A DNA stretch of 34,077 nucleotides, from the IMG/VR virus record IMGVR_UViG_3300009593_000061, positions 1-34,077 of that record; one strand, written 5' to 3'. Positions 16,559 through 26,191 of the stretch are shown here, piece by piece (position 1 is the stretch's first letter; every line of letters starts with the position of its first letter). This DNA comes from a virus. Position numbers and translations under genes: made by a program. Under the pieces are notes generated by a model, which worked only from the letters and a program-made list of their open reading frames with translations, had not been told where the DNA came from and did no database searches.

Positions 16559-17633
16559 CTTTCACCCCCTTAGCCCATGAGTGCGGGCAGTATCGTAAGG
16601 AATGGCAATTGCAGAACTGGTGGGGCTCGAGTAGATGCAACCCAAGTAGGACTTGTTGAGGAACAACTCCATTGCCGAGAACTCGTAAAGCTGGAGTGCG
16701 TTTCTCGTGGACCTCTGTGACCCACCCGAACGGCAATCCCATCATCCATTCGACAAAGTACTCAGAAAGCTTTCCATTAAGTACAGGGGAAGGTGCTACT
16801 CGTCCGCTAGCGGCTTCCCATCTTCGAATAGCTCCGAGATAATCACCCCAGGCAAGATCCTTCTCTTCGCTTGCCGCTCGTAGTCCATGTTCCCTGTGTC
16901 TTTGTGATCTCTCGAAGTCGGGGTTGGGAGTAGACGCATCTCGATGCTCAGACTCTTCCCGTGACCGTTCCCGTTCCGTCCCTTCGCTTTCTGTTCTGCT
17001 ATCCAGTTTTCCCACCATTCGACTGTCTTGTCGTCCCCCATGTCGTTTACGACTGGAGTTGGCAGCAAGTGTGGGATGTCCCATAAGTTTTTCCCGAAGG
17101 CGTTCGCTGTCACATCTGGGGTCGCCCCATGCTTTGCTGCTTGAGCTGTCGGTGTCGGCAGGGTAGGCAACGCAGATCCATCGCGCACGTCGATGAGGTG
17201 CGTATGCGTCTGATGCTCGAACAAGTCCCCACCTACAGTCGTACCCCATTGCGGTAAGCGTTGCAATACAGCTGGGTCCTCCTTTAGTAAGGATTCCTTG
17301 AACGTTTTCCAACACAATTCGGTCTGGTCGAAGGATGCTGCAGGCATCTCCGATCCACTGAAAGATTGCTCTTTCGTCATCATTTCCTTTCCGTAGTCCA
17401 GCTGTGCTGAAGGGCTGGCAGGGAAATCCTGCAGCCACAATGTTGACTGGTTCTAGATCGTGAGGGTTTAGCTTGGTTAGATCCCCTACAGGCTTGGCCT
17501 TAGGGAACCTGGTCGCCATTACTTCTTGCGATGCTTTGTCTGTGTCGCTCCACCAAACTGTTTCAGCGTTGTAGAACAACTCGACTGCTAGGTCTAAGCC
17601 CCCATATCCTGAACAAAAACTCCCTAATTTCAT
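16530..17633 (-). CDS. DNA (cytosine-5-)-methyltransferase
   Basis: 367 residues. Conserved motifs in order: I, FCSGYGGLDLA (SAM binding); IV, GFPCQPFSTAG with catalytic Cys72; VI, VLENVQG (Glu109); VIII, APHRRARWICVAYP; then a target-recognition part at about residues 160-270 rich in Ser, Arg and Glu; the phage-typical YFVEWMMGLPFGWV; and IX-X, RVLGNGVVPQQV. It transfers a methyl group from SAM to cytosine C5 in double-stranded DNA. No restriction enzyme is adjacent, so it probably shields phage DNA from host restriction. An unusual Cys/His-rich tail (FCNCHSLRYCPHSW) follows motif X. Its ATG overlaps the gp88-like stop (ATGA). Confidence 0.93.
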   Translation of the reverse strand: MKLGSFCSGYGGLDLAVELFYNAETVWWSDTDKASQEVMATRFPKAKPVGDLTKLNPHDLEPVNIVAAGFPCQPFSTAGLRKGNDDERAIFQWIGDACSILRPDRIVLENVQGILTKGGPSCIATLTAMGYDCRWGLVRASDAYAPHRRARWICVAYPADTDSSSSKAWGDPRCDSERLREKLMGHPTLAANSSRKRHGGRQDSRMVGKLDSRTESEGTERERSREESEHRDASTPNPDFERSQRHREHGLRAASEEKDLAWGDYLGAIRRWEAASGRVAPSPVLNGKLSEYFVEWMMGLPFGWVTEVHEKRTPALRVLGNGVVPQQVLLGLHLLEPHQFCNCHSLRYCPHSWAKGVKDELSRQFHN

Positions 17634-18412
17634 TTATGTCCTTTCGATGCGAAACGAACGTTGTTGATCCCCTTGATACACATGCCGCACTCGACACAAG
17701 CACCACGGCCCAAACGATCTTCACCCCACACAACCAAAGGAACCTTGCCCGTCAACTCAGGACATTTAGGTCCCTTACGGCGATGCGGGAATGCAGCTGC
17801 TAACCCCTCAGTGTCTTCCCAAGTGTCAGCACAGAAGGCGAGATGCACCCACGGGTGCTTCCGCTCAGTCTTGATTGCTGCTTTCACGTTGTCAGGATCG
17901 ATTGATAGGTATACCGCTAGGTTGTCTGGTCCCTTCAGTCTGTGAACGAACGAGAACGAACGGGTATACATCCAGAACTGAACTTCTGGGTACCGTACTG
18001 CTATCCGTCTGATCGCCGTAGCGAACTGCTCAGTAGGCAGATCGCCGTTCCAGAACCAACGAAACACCCACTCTTCTGGTGGGATATCTCGCTTAACGTA
18101 CTGGCGGATTACTTCCTCAACTAGAGGAGCTAAAAGATCAGTTAAAGCATCAGCATCAGTTAGATGCGGCTCTACTGCCTGCCAGTTCCCTGCCAAGAAA
18201 TTGTCAACTGTTTTCCATGCTTTCTGTAACGCCAATGCATAACAGATTTCTTCGCACCATTCAGTTGACCCATAGCAAGATTTGATAGCGGGCAATCCGA
18301 AACTATTCTTAACTCGAACTGTTCCCTCATTCTCCCCCTTACCCTTCTTGCCGATTAATGGGGACACCTTACGGTCCCCCGTTAATCGTGGTTCGGTTAT
18401 TACTGTGAGCAT
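17630..18412 (-). CDS. Gp88-family phage protein with cysteine motifs
   Basis: 260 residues, ATG at 18412 with AGGGAGAGA before it. It resembles the mycobacteriophage gene product 88 family: conserved SCYGSTEWCEEICYALAL near residue 45, FRWFWNGDLPTEQFATAIRR in the middle, FWMYTRSFSFVHRLKGPDN, VYLSIDPDN, then a C-terminal cluster CVECGMCIKG. The Cys sets at both ends may bind a metal or Fe-S cluster. The biochemical role of this family is not known to me. A copy of the palindrome TCTAGAAnnnTTCTAGA sits 16 bases before the start codon, so it probably starts a regulated unit that continues into the methyltransferase. Confidence 0.75.
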   Translation of the reverse strand: MLTVITEPRLTGDRKVSPLIGKKGKGENEGTVRVKNSFGLPAIKSCYGSTEWCEEICYALALQKAWKTVDNFLAGNWQAVEPHLTDADALTDLLAPLVEEVIRQYVKRDIPPEEWVFRWFWNGDLPTEQFATAIRRIAVRYPEVQFWMYTRSFSFVHRLKGPDNLAVYLSIDPDNVKAAIKTERKHPWVHLAFCADTWEDTEGLAAAFPHRRKGPKCPELTGKVPLVVWGEDRLGRGACVECGMCIKGINNVRFASKGHK

Positions 18413-23023: not shown

Positions 23024-23066
23024 GGGGGGAGAGGAGAACTGCTGGGGGCAGTTCTCCTCTCCCCCC
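23024..23066 (+). promoter_or_regulatory. Perfect 19-bp leader hairpin before the terminase genes
   Basis: GGGGGGAGAGGAGAACTGC (23024-23042) and its exact complement at 23048-23066, loop TGGGG. It is followed by CCTCTTCTATATATA, not a clean T-run. It may be a 5' mRNA stabiliser, an antitermination or attenuation target, or part of the packaging signal. It is the most stable structure I found in the window. Confidence 0.8.
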
Positions 23067-23137: not shown

Positions 23138-23584
23138 ATGCCGCAGAATGGTGGTGGACGTGGTTGGACGACTGATCCTGATTCGGGGGAGAAGGTGATG
23201 CCGTCTGATTGGTCTGAGTTTTTAGATTGGTTGTTGTCGGAGGTTCGTGAGCCTGGGACTCAGAAGGAGTGGGCTGTCGAGAATGGTGTGAATGAGCGTA
23301 CTGTTCGTCGTTGGAAAGCTGATTCTCGTTTTATTCGTGAGTGGGACCGTAGGGCAGCTGAACTTAATGTTCACCCTGAGCGAACACAGGCTGTTGTGGA
23401 TGCGCTTTTTAAGCAGGCTGCTGATGGTGATGTGAAGGCTGCGACGTTGTATTTGCAGTACATAGATAAGTTCACGCCGAAGCGGCGTGTGGTGGTTGAT
23501 GATGAGCGTGATGCGTCTGGTATGTCGGATGCGGAGCTTGCAGCTGAGTTGGAGCAGCTGGTGGGGGAGTTACAGGGTGAGTGA
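23138..23584 (+). CDS. terS: Terminase small subunit
   Basis: 148 residues, ATG behind TTAGGAGG. The N-terminal third contains a helix-turn-helix (TQKEWAVENGVNERTVRRWK) as in phBC6A51-type small terminase subunits, then a helical oligomerisation part (DALFKQAADGDVKAATLYLQ) and an acidic C-terminus (SDAELAAELEQLVGELQGE) that normally contacts the large subunit. It would recognise the packaging site and form the ring that loads the motor. It is the first late gene after the divergent control region, and the large subunit follows about 1.0 kb downstream beyond two small genes and an antisense gene. Confidence 0.8.
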   Translation: MPQNGGGRGWTTDPDSGEKVMPSDWSEFLDWLLSEVREPGTQKEWAVENGVNERTVRRWKADSRFIREWDRRAAELNVHPERTQAVVDALFKQAADGDVKAATLYLQYIDKFTPKRRVVVDDERDASGMSDAELAAELEQLVGELQGE

Positions 23585-23738: not shown

Positions 23739-24029
23739 TTGTCGATAGAGGATGTTGCAGATAAGGCTGATGTTTGGTCGGAGGCTATCAAGAAGATCAT
23801 TAAGGCAATTACGGCTGCTGTGGTTGCTCTTATCGCTGCGTTTAGCGGTGTAACCATGTTGTGGTCAGGGGATGATGATCCTGAGCCTGTTCGTATAGAA
23901 ACAGAGTATGTGGGTGGTGGGAATACTTTTGGGCCTCAGTGTTCTCAGTTGATGTCAACAATCGAGCACACTTGGACAGAACAACAATGGTCTGTGTGGG
24001 AGCAGTTGCGTAAGAGTATGGGTTGTTAA
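23739..24029 (+). CDS. Small membrane protein, 96 residues
   Basis: TTG at 23739 with GAGGGGGCG before it. An amphipathic N-terminal helix is followed by a single membrane segment (KIIKAITAAVVALIAAFSGV, about residues 18-40) and then a polar C-terminal part ending HTWTEQQWSVWEQLRKSMGC. It is of unknown function; a holin or spanin-like role is possible, but the lysis genes are elsewhere. Its stop (TAA, 24027-24029) shares three bases with the stop of the antisense oxygenase gene. Confidence 0.6.
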   Translation: MSIEDVADKADVWSEAIKKIIKAITAAVVALIAAFSGVTMLWSGDDDPEPVRIETEYVGGGNTFGPQCSQLMSTIEHTWTEQQWSVWEQLRKSMGC

Positions 24030-24634
24030 CGTAGCGGTGGTCCGTTGAACCATATGACTCCGCTGTATCTTTCTCCTGATGTTATGGGGGTTACTTGGTG
24101 TTCTATGAAACTTGGGAATACAACTAGGGAGCCTCGAGGAGCGTCGTTAAAGATATGCAGTTGGTCGTAGCATCGAAGTTGAAGTTCTCCTCCTTGGTAT
24201 TCGTTGGGGTGGGAGAAGTTGACTGTCGCGGAGAGTTTTCTGACTGTGCCTTGGAATTCGGGGTACGGTGTTACGTTTAACGGAATTGGGTTGGGTGCCT
24301 GGGCGACTAGCTTTCGGGCAGCGTGTTGGTCGCAGTGTCCGTCAACGTGCCAATCATAGAATTCGTCGGTTTGGTATCTGGTGTATTGGAGTGCTTCTGC
24401 CTTTTCCAGGTCATATTGCCAGCCTGCTTCTTTGTTGGCTTGTCGTATCCAAGCGCCGATTAAAGCGTTTGGTGATTCATCGAAAATCCAAGAAACTTGG
24501 GATCTCCGATGATCTTTTTCCGTTCCGAAGTGAATTCCTTCGACTACAGTTTTTTCGGCAGCCAAGTGTTGAATCTCGTCGCACTGCTGTGGGGTTAGCG
24601 CCTCTGGGATATACCAGTAATGGTTGGTGAGCAT
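24026..24634 (-). CDS. Fe(II)/2-oxoglutarate oxygenase (PKHD-type hydroxylase)
   Basis: 202 residues on the strand opposite to all late neighbours. The metal triad is clear: DWHVDGH (His96, Asp98) and SFIEHQVTPITSGERYSGVI (His179), with Arg189 to bind 2-oxoglutarate. FQGTVRKLSATVNFS and NEYQGGELQLR are the typical jelly-roll strands, and WFNGPPLR ends the family. Such enzymes hydroxylate protein prolines, other residues or small molecules; the phage substrate is unknown. The gene exactly fills the space between two plus-strand genes: its stop overlaps the upstream gene by 4 bp, and its ATG (24632-24634) shares two bases with the ATG of the large terminase gene. No Shine-Dalgarno is visible, but TAATCT lies 7 bases before the ATG, as in leaderless transcripts. 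Confidence 0.85.
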   Translation of the reverse strand: MLTNHYWYIPEALTPQQCDEIQHLAAEKTVVEGIHFGTEKDHRRSQVSWIFDESPNALIGAWIRQANKEAGWQYDLEKAEALQYTRYQTDEFYDWHVDGHCDQHAARKLVAQAPNPIPLNVTPYPEFQGTVRKLSATVNFSHPNEYQGGELQLRCYDQLHIFNDAPRGSLVVFPSFIEHQVTPITSGERYSGVIWFNGPPLR

Positions 24635-25520
24635 GGGTACAAGATTAGCCGAGTTAAGACAAGAAGCTGAATGGCGGAAGTGTCAGCGAGATGAACAACA
24701 TTTTTTACAGAATTACTGGCACATTGCTCACCCTGCTCACGGTCGTATTCTTTTTGCTTTACGTCAGGCTCAAAAAGAAGCTATTGAACACTGGGGCTCT
24801 AATAGATATTCGCTTACGTTAAAAGCGAGACAAATTGGGTGGAGCACCTTGGTGGCTGCCCACCAGTTCTGGCTGGCGTTTTTTCATCCTGATCAGAACA
24901 TTATTGATCTCTCTCGAACTGAGAGAGAAGCCGTACTGTTGCTTAGGAAAAGTAGGTACGGGTTTCAGCATTTACCTAAATGGATGGTAGAACGTGGACC
25001 TAAGTCTTTGGTTGAGCATCAGCAACGGATGGGATTCGACAACGGAAGCCAGATTACGTCGATGCCTTCTGCTTCAGATCCTGCCCGTGGTGAATCGGCA
25101 ACACTTATCGTTGTTGATGAATGGGCATTCTTACCGAACCCAGAGGAGTCTTGGGCGTCGATAGAACCCGTGGCTGACGTGGGAGGGCGGATTATTGGGT
25201 TAAGTACAGCTAATGGTTCGGGAAACTTTTTTCATCATCTGTGGGTTGGGGCTTCTACTGGTTCAAACAAGTTTGAGCCCATGTTCTATCCGTGGTCTGC
25301 TACTGAGGACAGAGGCGATTCCTGGTACCAAGAAAAAATTGAGTCGATGCTGCCGTGGCAGCTCGCACAGGAATACCCGACAACTCCTGAAGAAGCGTTC
25401 GTCAAATCAGGAAACCCTGTGTTTGATCTAGATATCCTTGAAGAAATGGCAAAGCATGTGTCTTACGGAGAGCAAGGCTATATGTGGCGAAGCGGTAAAC
25501 AAGTTGAGTTCAGAGTATGA
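24633..25520 (+). CDS. terL: Terminase large subunit, ATPase part
   Basis: 295 residues from ATG 24633 (TTG 24624 and GTG 24627 are alternatives; no good ribosome site). Motor motifs in order: TLKARQIGWSTLVAA (Walker A-like), ATLIVVDEWAF (Walker B with catalytic Glu) and GLSTANGSG (coupling motif C), then WSATEDRGDSWYQEKIESML and TTPEEAFVKSGNPVFDLD, the end of the ATPase domain. It pumps DNA into the prohead. The usual C-terminal nuclease is not in this frame: translation stops with TGA at 25518-25520, overlapping the ATG of the next gene, which supplies it. The two together make a normal-size large subunit of about 520 residues. Confidence 0.88.
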   Translation: MGTRLAELRQEAEWRKCQRDEQHFLQNYWHIAHPAHGRILFALRQAQKEAIEHWGSNRYSLTLKARQIGWSTLVAAHQFWLAFFHPDQNIIDLSRTEREAVLLLRKSRYGFQHLPKWMVERGPKSLVEHQQRMGFDNGSQITSMPSASDPARGESATLIVVDEWAFLPNPEESWASIEPVADVGGRIIGLSTANGSGNFFHHLWVGASTGSNKFEPMFYPWSATEDRGDSWYQEKIESMLPWQLAQEYPTTPEEAFVKSGNPVFDLDILEEMAKHVSYGEQGYMWRSGKQVEFRV

Positions 25521-26191
25521 GCTTAGAAGTTTGGGAACGTCCACAAACAAATAGCGCTTACGTTATGGGCATTGACACAGCCGAAGGTTTAGGTCACGGC
25601 GATTACAGTGTCATTCAAGTTATTAATGTGGGGACAGGAAATCAGGCAGCCATATGGCATGGACATATAGCGCCTGATCTGTTGGCAGAAGAAGTTTATT
25701 CATTAGGTTTATGGTTCAACTCTGCTTTGTCTTGCGTCGAGTCCAACAACCACGGCTTGACGACTATCACTGAGCTGAGACACCTCGGATATCCAACGCT
25801 TTTTAGAAAACGTCAGTTAAATAACGTAAACAACAGAATCAGTCAAGAATATGGTTGGAAGACAACCAGGACTTCGAAACCACTTTTAATAGACGACTTG
25901 GGTTCCGCAATGAGAAACCAAGAGCTAATGATCAATGACCGCCATACTGTGGCAGAACTTCGGACTTATGTAAAAAATGATCGAGGGTCCATGTCAGGTT
26001 CACCGTATGATGACCGAGTTATGGCTTTAGCATTAGCTAACCAAATGCGTAAATACGCTTATGAACCAGAATATGTGACAGAAGTAAACGACTACTGGAC
26101 TTGGAATTGGTTTTCTCGTCTAGCTAATGGCAATGTTCAAGAAAATTCTGAAGCTACAATTGGATCAAATACTATCCGTGGGACACGGTAA
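25517..26191 (+). CDS. Terminase large subunit, nuclease part
   Basis: 224 residues, ATG overlapping the ATPase-part stop (ATGA), one base back in frame. It begins SLEVWERPQTNSAYVMGIDT, which is what normally follows the ATPase domain within one chain. RNase H-fold nuclease residues are visible: GIDTAEG (Asp20), CVESNNHG (Glu75) and SPYDDRVMALALA (Asp165/166). It cuts concatemeric DNA at the start and end of packaging. The separate gene could be a natural two-chain terminase, a product of -1 frameshifting, or a sequencing error; the neat ATGA overlap favours the first. Confidence 0.85.
   Translation: MSLEVWERPQTNSAYVMGIDTAEGLGHGDYSVIQVINVGTGNQAAIWHGHIAPDLLAEEVYSLGLWFNSALSCVESNNHGLTTITELRHLGYPTLFRKRQLNNVNNRISQEYGWKTTRTSKPLLIDDLGSAMRNQELMINDRHTVAELRTYVKNDRGSMSGSPYDDRVMALALANQMRKYAYEPEYVTEVNDYWTWNWFSRLANGNVQENSEATIGSNTIRGTR

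Follow-up and report, generated by a model that had tools for sequence, protein, structure and literature searches.

A 2-oxoglutarate oxygenase gene antisense to the terminase genes of a marine phage and its putative leaderless promoter within terL

Gene arrangement at the locus

The window analysed here is the whole of one viral record, a stretch of 34,077 bases (Table 1). Its minus strand carries a gene for an Fe(II)/2-oxoglutarate (2OG) oxygenase, which is flanked on the left by genes for the small terminase subunit, a 50-aa ORF and orf96, and on the right by the two halves of the large terminase (TerL), followed by genes for the portal, the scaffold and the major head protein. A sequence-only reading of this DNA had described a complete antisense oxygenase gene; the ORF, its strand and its coordinates proved exact, and the domain call is sound. 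The same reading had pointed out that the gene shares its stop with that of orf96, in the letters TTAA, and its start with that of the terminase gene, in the letters CATG, and both overlaps are indeed there. Its description of a seamless join, with no intergenic base left, is true of the window, but the join on the stop side varies among relatives. The neighbor that it called the large terminase gene belongs to a split TerL and encodes only the N-terminal part, the ATPase.

Table 1. Coordinates of the features at the oxygenase locus
Feature	Position	Strand	Remarks
Small terminase subunit	23138..23584	+	phrog_24579, E 6e-8; strong Shine-Dalgarno AGGAGG
orf96, small protein with hydrophobic stretch	23739..24029	+	Upstream of the slot
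2OG-Fe(II) oxygenase gene	24026..24634	-	202 aa, ATG start; Pfam and phrog_61 matches
TTAA, overlapping convergent stop codons (oxygenase / orf96)	24026..24029	.	Variable among relatives
R189 codon, 2OG-binding arginine (presumed)	24068..24070	-	Invariant
H179 codon, third metal ligand	24098..24100	-	Invariant
D98 codon, second metal ligand	24341..24343	-	Invariant
H96 codon, first metal ligand (HxD)	24347..24349	-	Invariant
CATG, overlapping divergent start codons	24632..24635	.	Oxygenase ATG 24634-24632; TerL ATG 24633-24635
TerL N-terminal (ATPase) half	24633..25520	+	Host of the putative antisense promoter; Terminase_6N, E 1.5e-8; phrog_5989, E 1.1e-30
TAATCT, -10 element of the putative leaderless promoter	24642..24647	-	Inside TerL codons 4-5
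TerL C-terminal (nuclease) half	25517..26191	+	phrog_24361 'terminase', E 4e-22

Searches of the Pfam and PHROG profiles gave no family match for orf96, and an Rfam search of the window found no RNA family. Just upstream of the small terminase gene, at 23024-23066, lies a G+C-rich, terminator-like hairpin on the plus strand, with 20 pairs and a 3-base loop, where the late operon may be controlled.

Scanning viral contigs for the oxygenase protein identified 55 loci, most of which have the gene order small terminase, orf50, orf96, antisense oxygenase, N-terminal half of TerL (TerL-N), C-terminal half (TerL-C) and portal. A separate scan with TerL-N identified 80 loci, and at most of these the oxygenase again lies antisense at this position. 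At the 74 loci that show both starts, the oxygenase and TerL start codons overlap in CATG in 53 cases and lie one base apart in 19. Where loci from the TerL-N scan have both orf96 and the oxygenase, the two stops overlap in about 30 and are separated by extra DNA in about 18. Relatives that lack the oxygenase were obtained from two further TerL scans. Their slot is either empty, with an orf96-like ORF that ends at TerL, or it holds sense-strand genes that by eye resemble those for PAPS reductase and ferredoxin. The comparison of the same locus in related phages, as advised in the sequence-only reading, therefore returned both states, with the antisense oxygenase present at most TerL-anchored loci and absent from some relatives. 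On a TerL tree of 52 rows, the presence of the oxygenase requires a single change, such that one gain or one loss is enough to account for it. The comparison of loci indicates that the antisense arrangement is old.

The large terminase of the window is encoded by two ORFs (24633-26191), the ATPase followed by the nuclease, which overlap in ATGA. The relatives examined share the split, whether or not they have the oxygenase, and the gap between the halves is mostly 0-9 nt; the nearest deposited phage TerL, that of MW202803, is a single gene. In some relatives (L109, L101, L110, L116 and L121), about 835-848 bp lie between the halves. The intervening DNA of L109 (2626-3459) encodes a 277-aa ORF that by eye resembles a PAPS-reductase-type protein, and it looks like cargo inside a split terminase.

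The oxygenase and its family

The oxygenase is matched by the Pfam family 2OG-FeII_Oxy_3 with an E-value of 1.3e-11, above the curated cut-off, and over residues 4-200 by the phrog_61 profile with an E-value of 1.6e-31. The metal ligands H96, D98 and H179, along with R189, which from knowledge of the family we take to be the 2OG-binding arginine, are invariant among 28 diverse oxygenases with identity down to 44%. The His-Asp-His triad, on whose persistence in relatives the sequence-only reading had staked its claim, is therefore kept in all 28. Pairwise dN/dS is 0.05-0.25 in most pairs, and the single value near 0.3 belongs to two sequences that differ by very few changes. The oxygenase is shown by these codon comparisons to be under purifying selection, and the encoded enzyme appears intact and conserved.

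An AlphaFold2 model of the oxygenase, built on the alignment, has a pLDDT of 89.3, and the predicted structure has the DSBH fold. A fold search of the PDB gave 346 matches with E<=0.001, and the best 50 of the 346 all belong to the 2OG-Fe(II) oxygenase superfamily. The top solved structures are the PKHD-type hydroxylase 3dkq and PiuC, followed by a Pseudomonas prolyl hydroxylase (including its complex with EF-Tu), the collagen prolyl hydroxylase of PBCV-1 and PHD2; the best viral matches are oxygenases of cyanophages and uncultured phages. The structure-based comparison with PKHD hydroxylases that had been suggested from the sequence came out divided. The fold does match 3dkq and PiuC, but the NCBIfam models NF003972-NF003975 give scores of 36.8-53.7 bits versus curated cut-offs of 143-399. 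Assignment to PKHD/YbiX/PiuC was rejected for this reason, and the protein is filed as a phrog_61 2OG-Fe(II) oxygenase.

Judged by the modeled fold, the oxygenase perhaps acts like a peptidyl hydroxylase, and its product most likely hydroxylates a protein, as a peptidyl and probably prolyl-type enzyme. That the substrate is instead a nucleic acid or a small molecule is possible but somewhat unlikely. Such roles have been proposed, without proof, for the homologues in cyanophages, both in DNA repair (PMC2984593) and in a tie to 2OG and nitrogen status or signalling (PMC3037559). The sequence and fold matches of the window protein are to PKHD/PiuC and to peptidyl-prolyl hydroxylases, and the absence of AlkB-type proteins among the top matches listed is suggestive of a protein substrate, and only that. 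The window encodes no collagen-like or notably proline-rich protein that would point to a substrate. In the ocean, 2OG oxygenases of phages are widespread, with no proven substrate in the literature surveyed, and homologues of the cyanophage type are enriched in seasonal marine phages (PMC11561400).

A conserved -10 box within terL

On the minus strand, the hexamer TAATCT is followed by 7 bases and then by the ATG of the oxygenase; the plus-strand letters across it are AGA TTA, which are codons 4-5 of TerL. At 62 of the 74 loci, a TANNNT hexamer precedes the oxygenase start by exactly 7 nt, and at none is the distance 6 or 8 nt. The loci were thinned to 30 lineages with TerL nucleotide identity below 88%, and 26 of the 30 have the box, versus 2.4-2.5 expected from TerL codon usage given the amino acids, in counts of lineages or loci that are not independent, given the shared ancestry of the sequences. 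The sequence-only reading had placed a promoter inside the terminase gene and had taken TAATCT, seven bases before the ATG, to fit a leaderless start. The conserved -10 box supports the first proposal, and comparison across relatives lends strong support to the second.

The 7-nt position ranks first for TANNNT among 834 antisense positions of TerL-N, with a z of 11.6 versus 4.0 for the next, when the expectation is drawn from 400 codon resamplings. Within the hexamer, the three inner bases vary, and positions 1, 2 and 6 are fixed. The box is kept by eleven pairs of TerL codons, which combine AGA, AGG, AGC, AGT, ACT or ACC with TTA, CTA or ATA, and swaps among Arg, Ser and Thr at codon 4 still keep it. 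The wobble base of codon 5 has the top conservation of 280 TerL columns (z 8.2), but other columns reach a z of 6.6, such that wobble conservation alone is not decisive. The TG of an extended -10 element, supplied by codon 6, accompanies the box in 21 of the 26 box lineages; the box of the window itself is without it. A sigma-70 scan for paired -35 and -10 elements found no promoter at the oxygenase, and a scan for -35 wobble conservation in TerL codons 11-13 gave no signal. As far as comparison can define it, the oxygenase promoter is recognizable only as a conserved -10.

Of 22 lineages of relatives that lack the oxygenase, 1 has the box, versus 0.7 expected from their own codon usage. Their GC3 is 0.57, versus 0.43 in the other group, and with the codon usage of each group taken into account, neither codon bias nor GC explains the contrast. 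The four oxygenase lineages without the box (L012, L028, L034 and L131) all have a start codon 3 nt closer, and the box is present in every lineage with the 7-nt geometry. At the level of loci, the box-less sub-clade comprises L012, L022, L028, L031-L035, L041, L131 and L132, with the antisense oxygenase kept and its start 3 nt closer; another promoter or leader must therefore serve, at least there. Four oxygenase-less loci, L275, L277, L280 and L282, have TAATCT or TAACCT at TerL codons 4-5. These amount to the 1 of 22 at the lineage level, which is the chance expectation, and they could be a remnant.

The start of the oxygenase gene also has the marks of leaderless initiation. A sequence like that of Shine-Dalgarno lies upstream of it at 1 of the 74 loci, and Shine-Dalgarno sequences are common at the remaining genes of the window. 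Of the oxygenase start codons, 63 are ATG, 10 are GTG and none is TTG, with one fragment unreadable, and TTG starts do occur elsewhere in related phages. In mycobacteria, a 5'-terminal ATG or GTG is both required and enough for leaderless initiation, with TTG ineffective (PMC4633059). Leaderless genes, which are commonest in Actinobacteria and Deinococcus-Thermus, are marked by TA-like boxes some 10 bp upstream (PMC3160421). The oxygenase combines a -10 box in the range of 6-9 nt upstream, the lack of a Shine-Dalgarno sequence and the sole use of ATG or GTG. At 72 of 74 loci, a pyrimidine precedes the start codon, suggesting that the preferred purine of the initiation window would be that of the start codon itself.

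A search for leaderless starts in the phage at large was negative: its other genes, 496 in the count, have no TANNNT peak at 6-8 nt. The leaderless signal is therefore special to the oxygenase.

The box could be conserved for the sake of TerL, as A-rich, weakly structured early codons or as part of a cos or pac packaging sequence, rather than as a promoter. It does sit in the first TerL codons, where A-rich codons aid initiation, and several further TerL columns show wobble conservation. This reading is nevertheless quite improbable, given that the box tracks the oxygenase when each group is held to its own codon usage, that TerL codons 7-10 have no excess of A, that the box is gone where the oxygenase start lies 3 nt closer and that only the three hexamer positions predicted by a -10 box are fixed. 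Alternatively, the oxygenase might be translated from a longer leftward transcript that begins deeper in terL or beyond, with the box as a minor or secondary promoter. Some other route exists at least in the sub-clade that has the oxygenase without the box, and the box is not accompanied by a -35 element. As a general account it is improbable, because the lack of a Shine-Dalgarno-like sequence at 73 of the 74 loci would leave a leadered mRNA poorly translated, and because a 7-nt spacing, together with the exclusive use of ATG or GTG, is the signature of leaderless genes.

It has also been considered that the antisense pair is a regulatory timing switch, with a dual-coding start of terL. Early in infection, the oxygenase promoter, which covers the TerL start, would fire from the host polymerase and hinder TerL; late in infection, readthrough of the late operon would shut off the oxygenase. 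The promoter and the TerL start do occupy overlapping DNA, and the layout of the late operon is such that it would traverse the oxygenase as antisense. However, relatives without the oxygenase manage without such a switch, and the slot otherwise holds ordinary sense-strand cargo. The switch is rather unlikely, and it would be compatible with the main explanation, as an added layer.

Proposed expression and comparison with known systems

The main explanation, which is probably correct, is that a cargo oxygenase is expressed from a leaderless promoter of its own, which lies within terL and is mostly of the extended -10 type. The oxygenase would be an auxiliary, or moron, gene of a lineage of marine phages, in the slot that separates terL from the small terminase genes, with a history of one gain or of one loss in the sister group. 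It would be transcribed leftward and separately, from a leaderless promoter encoded in codons 4-6 of the split terL. From the sequences we infer that host RNA polymerase would begin the transcript some 8 nt downstream of the box, on the first purine, which would be the A or G of the oxygenase ATG or GTG, and that a ribosome would then initiate on the bare 5' end of the mRNA. Such a leaderless mRNA would yield the enzyme independently of the late operon. The rightward late operon, if read through from the small terminase, would pass the oxygenase as antisense and may damp it late in infection. Such antisense RNA had led the sequence-only reading to propose that the gene may work only early.

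Actinomycetota are the likely candidates for the host of the phage. A protein of the GP88 family (PF17338), which is known from actinophages, is encoded at 17630-18412 and is also found in 11 of 15 related phage records. A relative with an 87% identical oxygenase was binned in an Acidimicrobiaceae TMED189 MAG. The leaderless TANNNT peak of that MAG is at 6 nt, not 7 (33 versus a mean of 7.5). The host link by MAG is weak, because the GC of the TMED189 MAG is 34% versus 46% for the phage contig and because another relative was binned in a 'Euryarchaeota' MAG. No tRNAs for host matching were found.

Phage cargo genes need to be expressed without upsetting the core operon that surrounds them. The oxygenase is a clear comparative case of cargo that is apparently expressed by way of a promoter antisense in an essential packaging gene, in which the choice of terL codons keeps the promoter across wide divergence, among oxygenases as little as 44% identical. 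Sequence alone revealed the putative promoter, which gives an exact predicted start position. The finding suggests a search for hidden antisense genes, by way of opposite-strand TANNNT hexamers about 7 nt before ATG or GTG that are conserved against codon usage.

The oxygenase belongs to the same family as the phrog_61 oxygenases of cyanophages and of the pelagiphages HTVC008M, HTVC023P and HTVC033P, which, like it, are auxiliary genes of marine phages with a putative function. The closest deposited phrog_61 relatives are about 36% identical to it over the full length. In HTVC023P and HTVC033P, the oxygenase lies on the strand of its neighbors, as part of a run that also includes another oxygenase gene and a gene for a putative ferrochelatase, whereas in the window it is a single copy, antisense beside terL, with its own putative embedded promoter. 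Among solved structures, the PKHD-type proteins YbiX and PiuC (3dkq, 9ghl and 9qn0) are the best matches in both sequence and fold, with an HxD...H...R core in common, but the identity is about 20%, the sequence match covers the C-terminal core only and the best score is 53.7 bits versus 143. The Pseudomonas P4H (EF-Tu), vCPH of PBCV-1 and PHD2 share the fold class, with TM of about 0.6-0.75, but these peptidyl-prolyl hydroxylases have under 22% sequence identity to the oxygenase.

The leaderless genes of Actinobacteria, with TANNNT about 10 bp upstream and a 5' ATG or GTG, have the -10 spacing, the lack of Shine-Dalgarno and the RTG start in common with the oxygenase. Unlike theirs, the putative promoter in the window is antisense within a phage packaging gene and is conserved by the codon choice of TerL. 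The cI gene of lambda, as transcribed from PRM, is likewise read from a leaderless phage mRNA, with its own promoter and against the neighboring unit, but PRM lies in an intergenic operator and not inside a structural or packaging gene. In short, the oxygenase is a known kind of enzyme, and the putative leaderless antisense promoter, embedded in terL and conserved through its codons, is a new form of a known kind.
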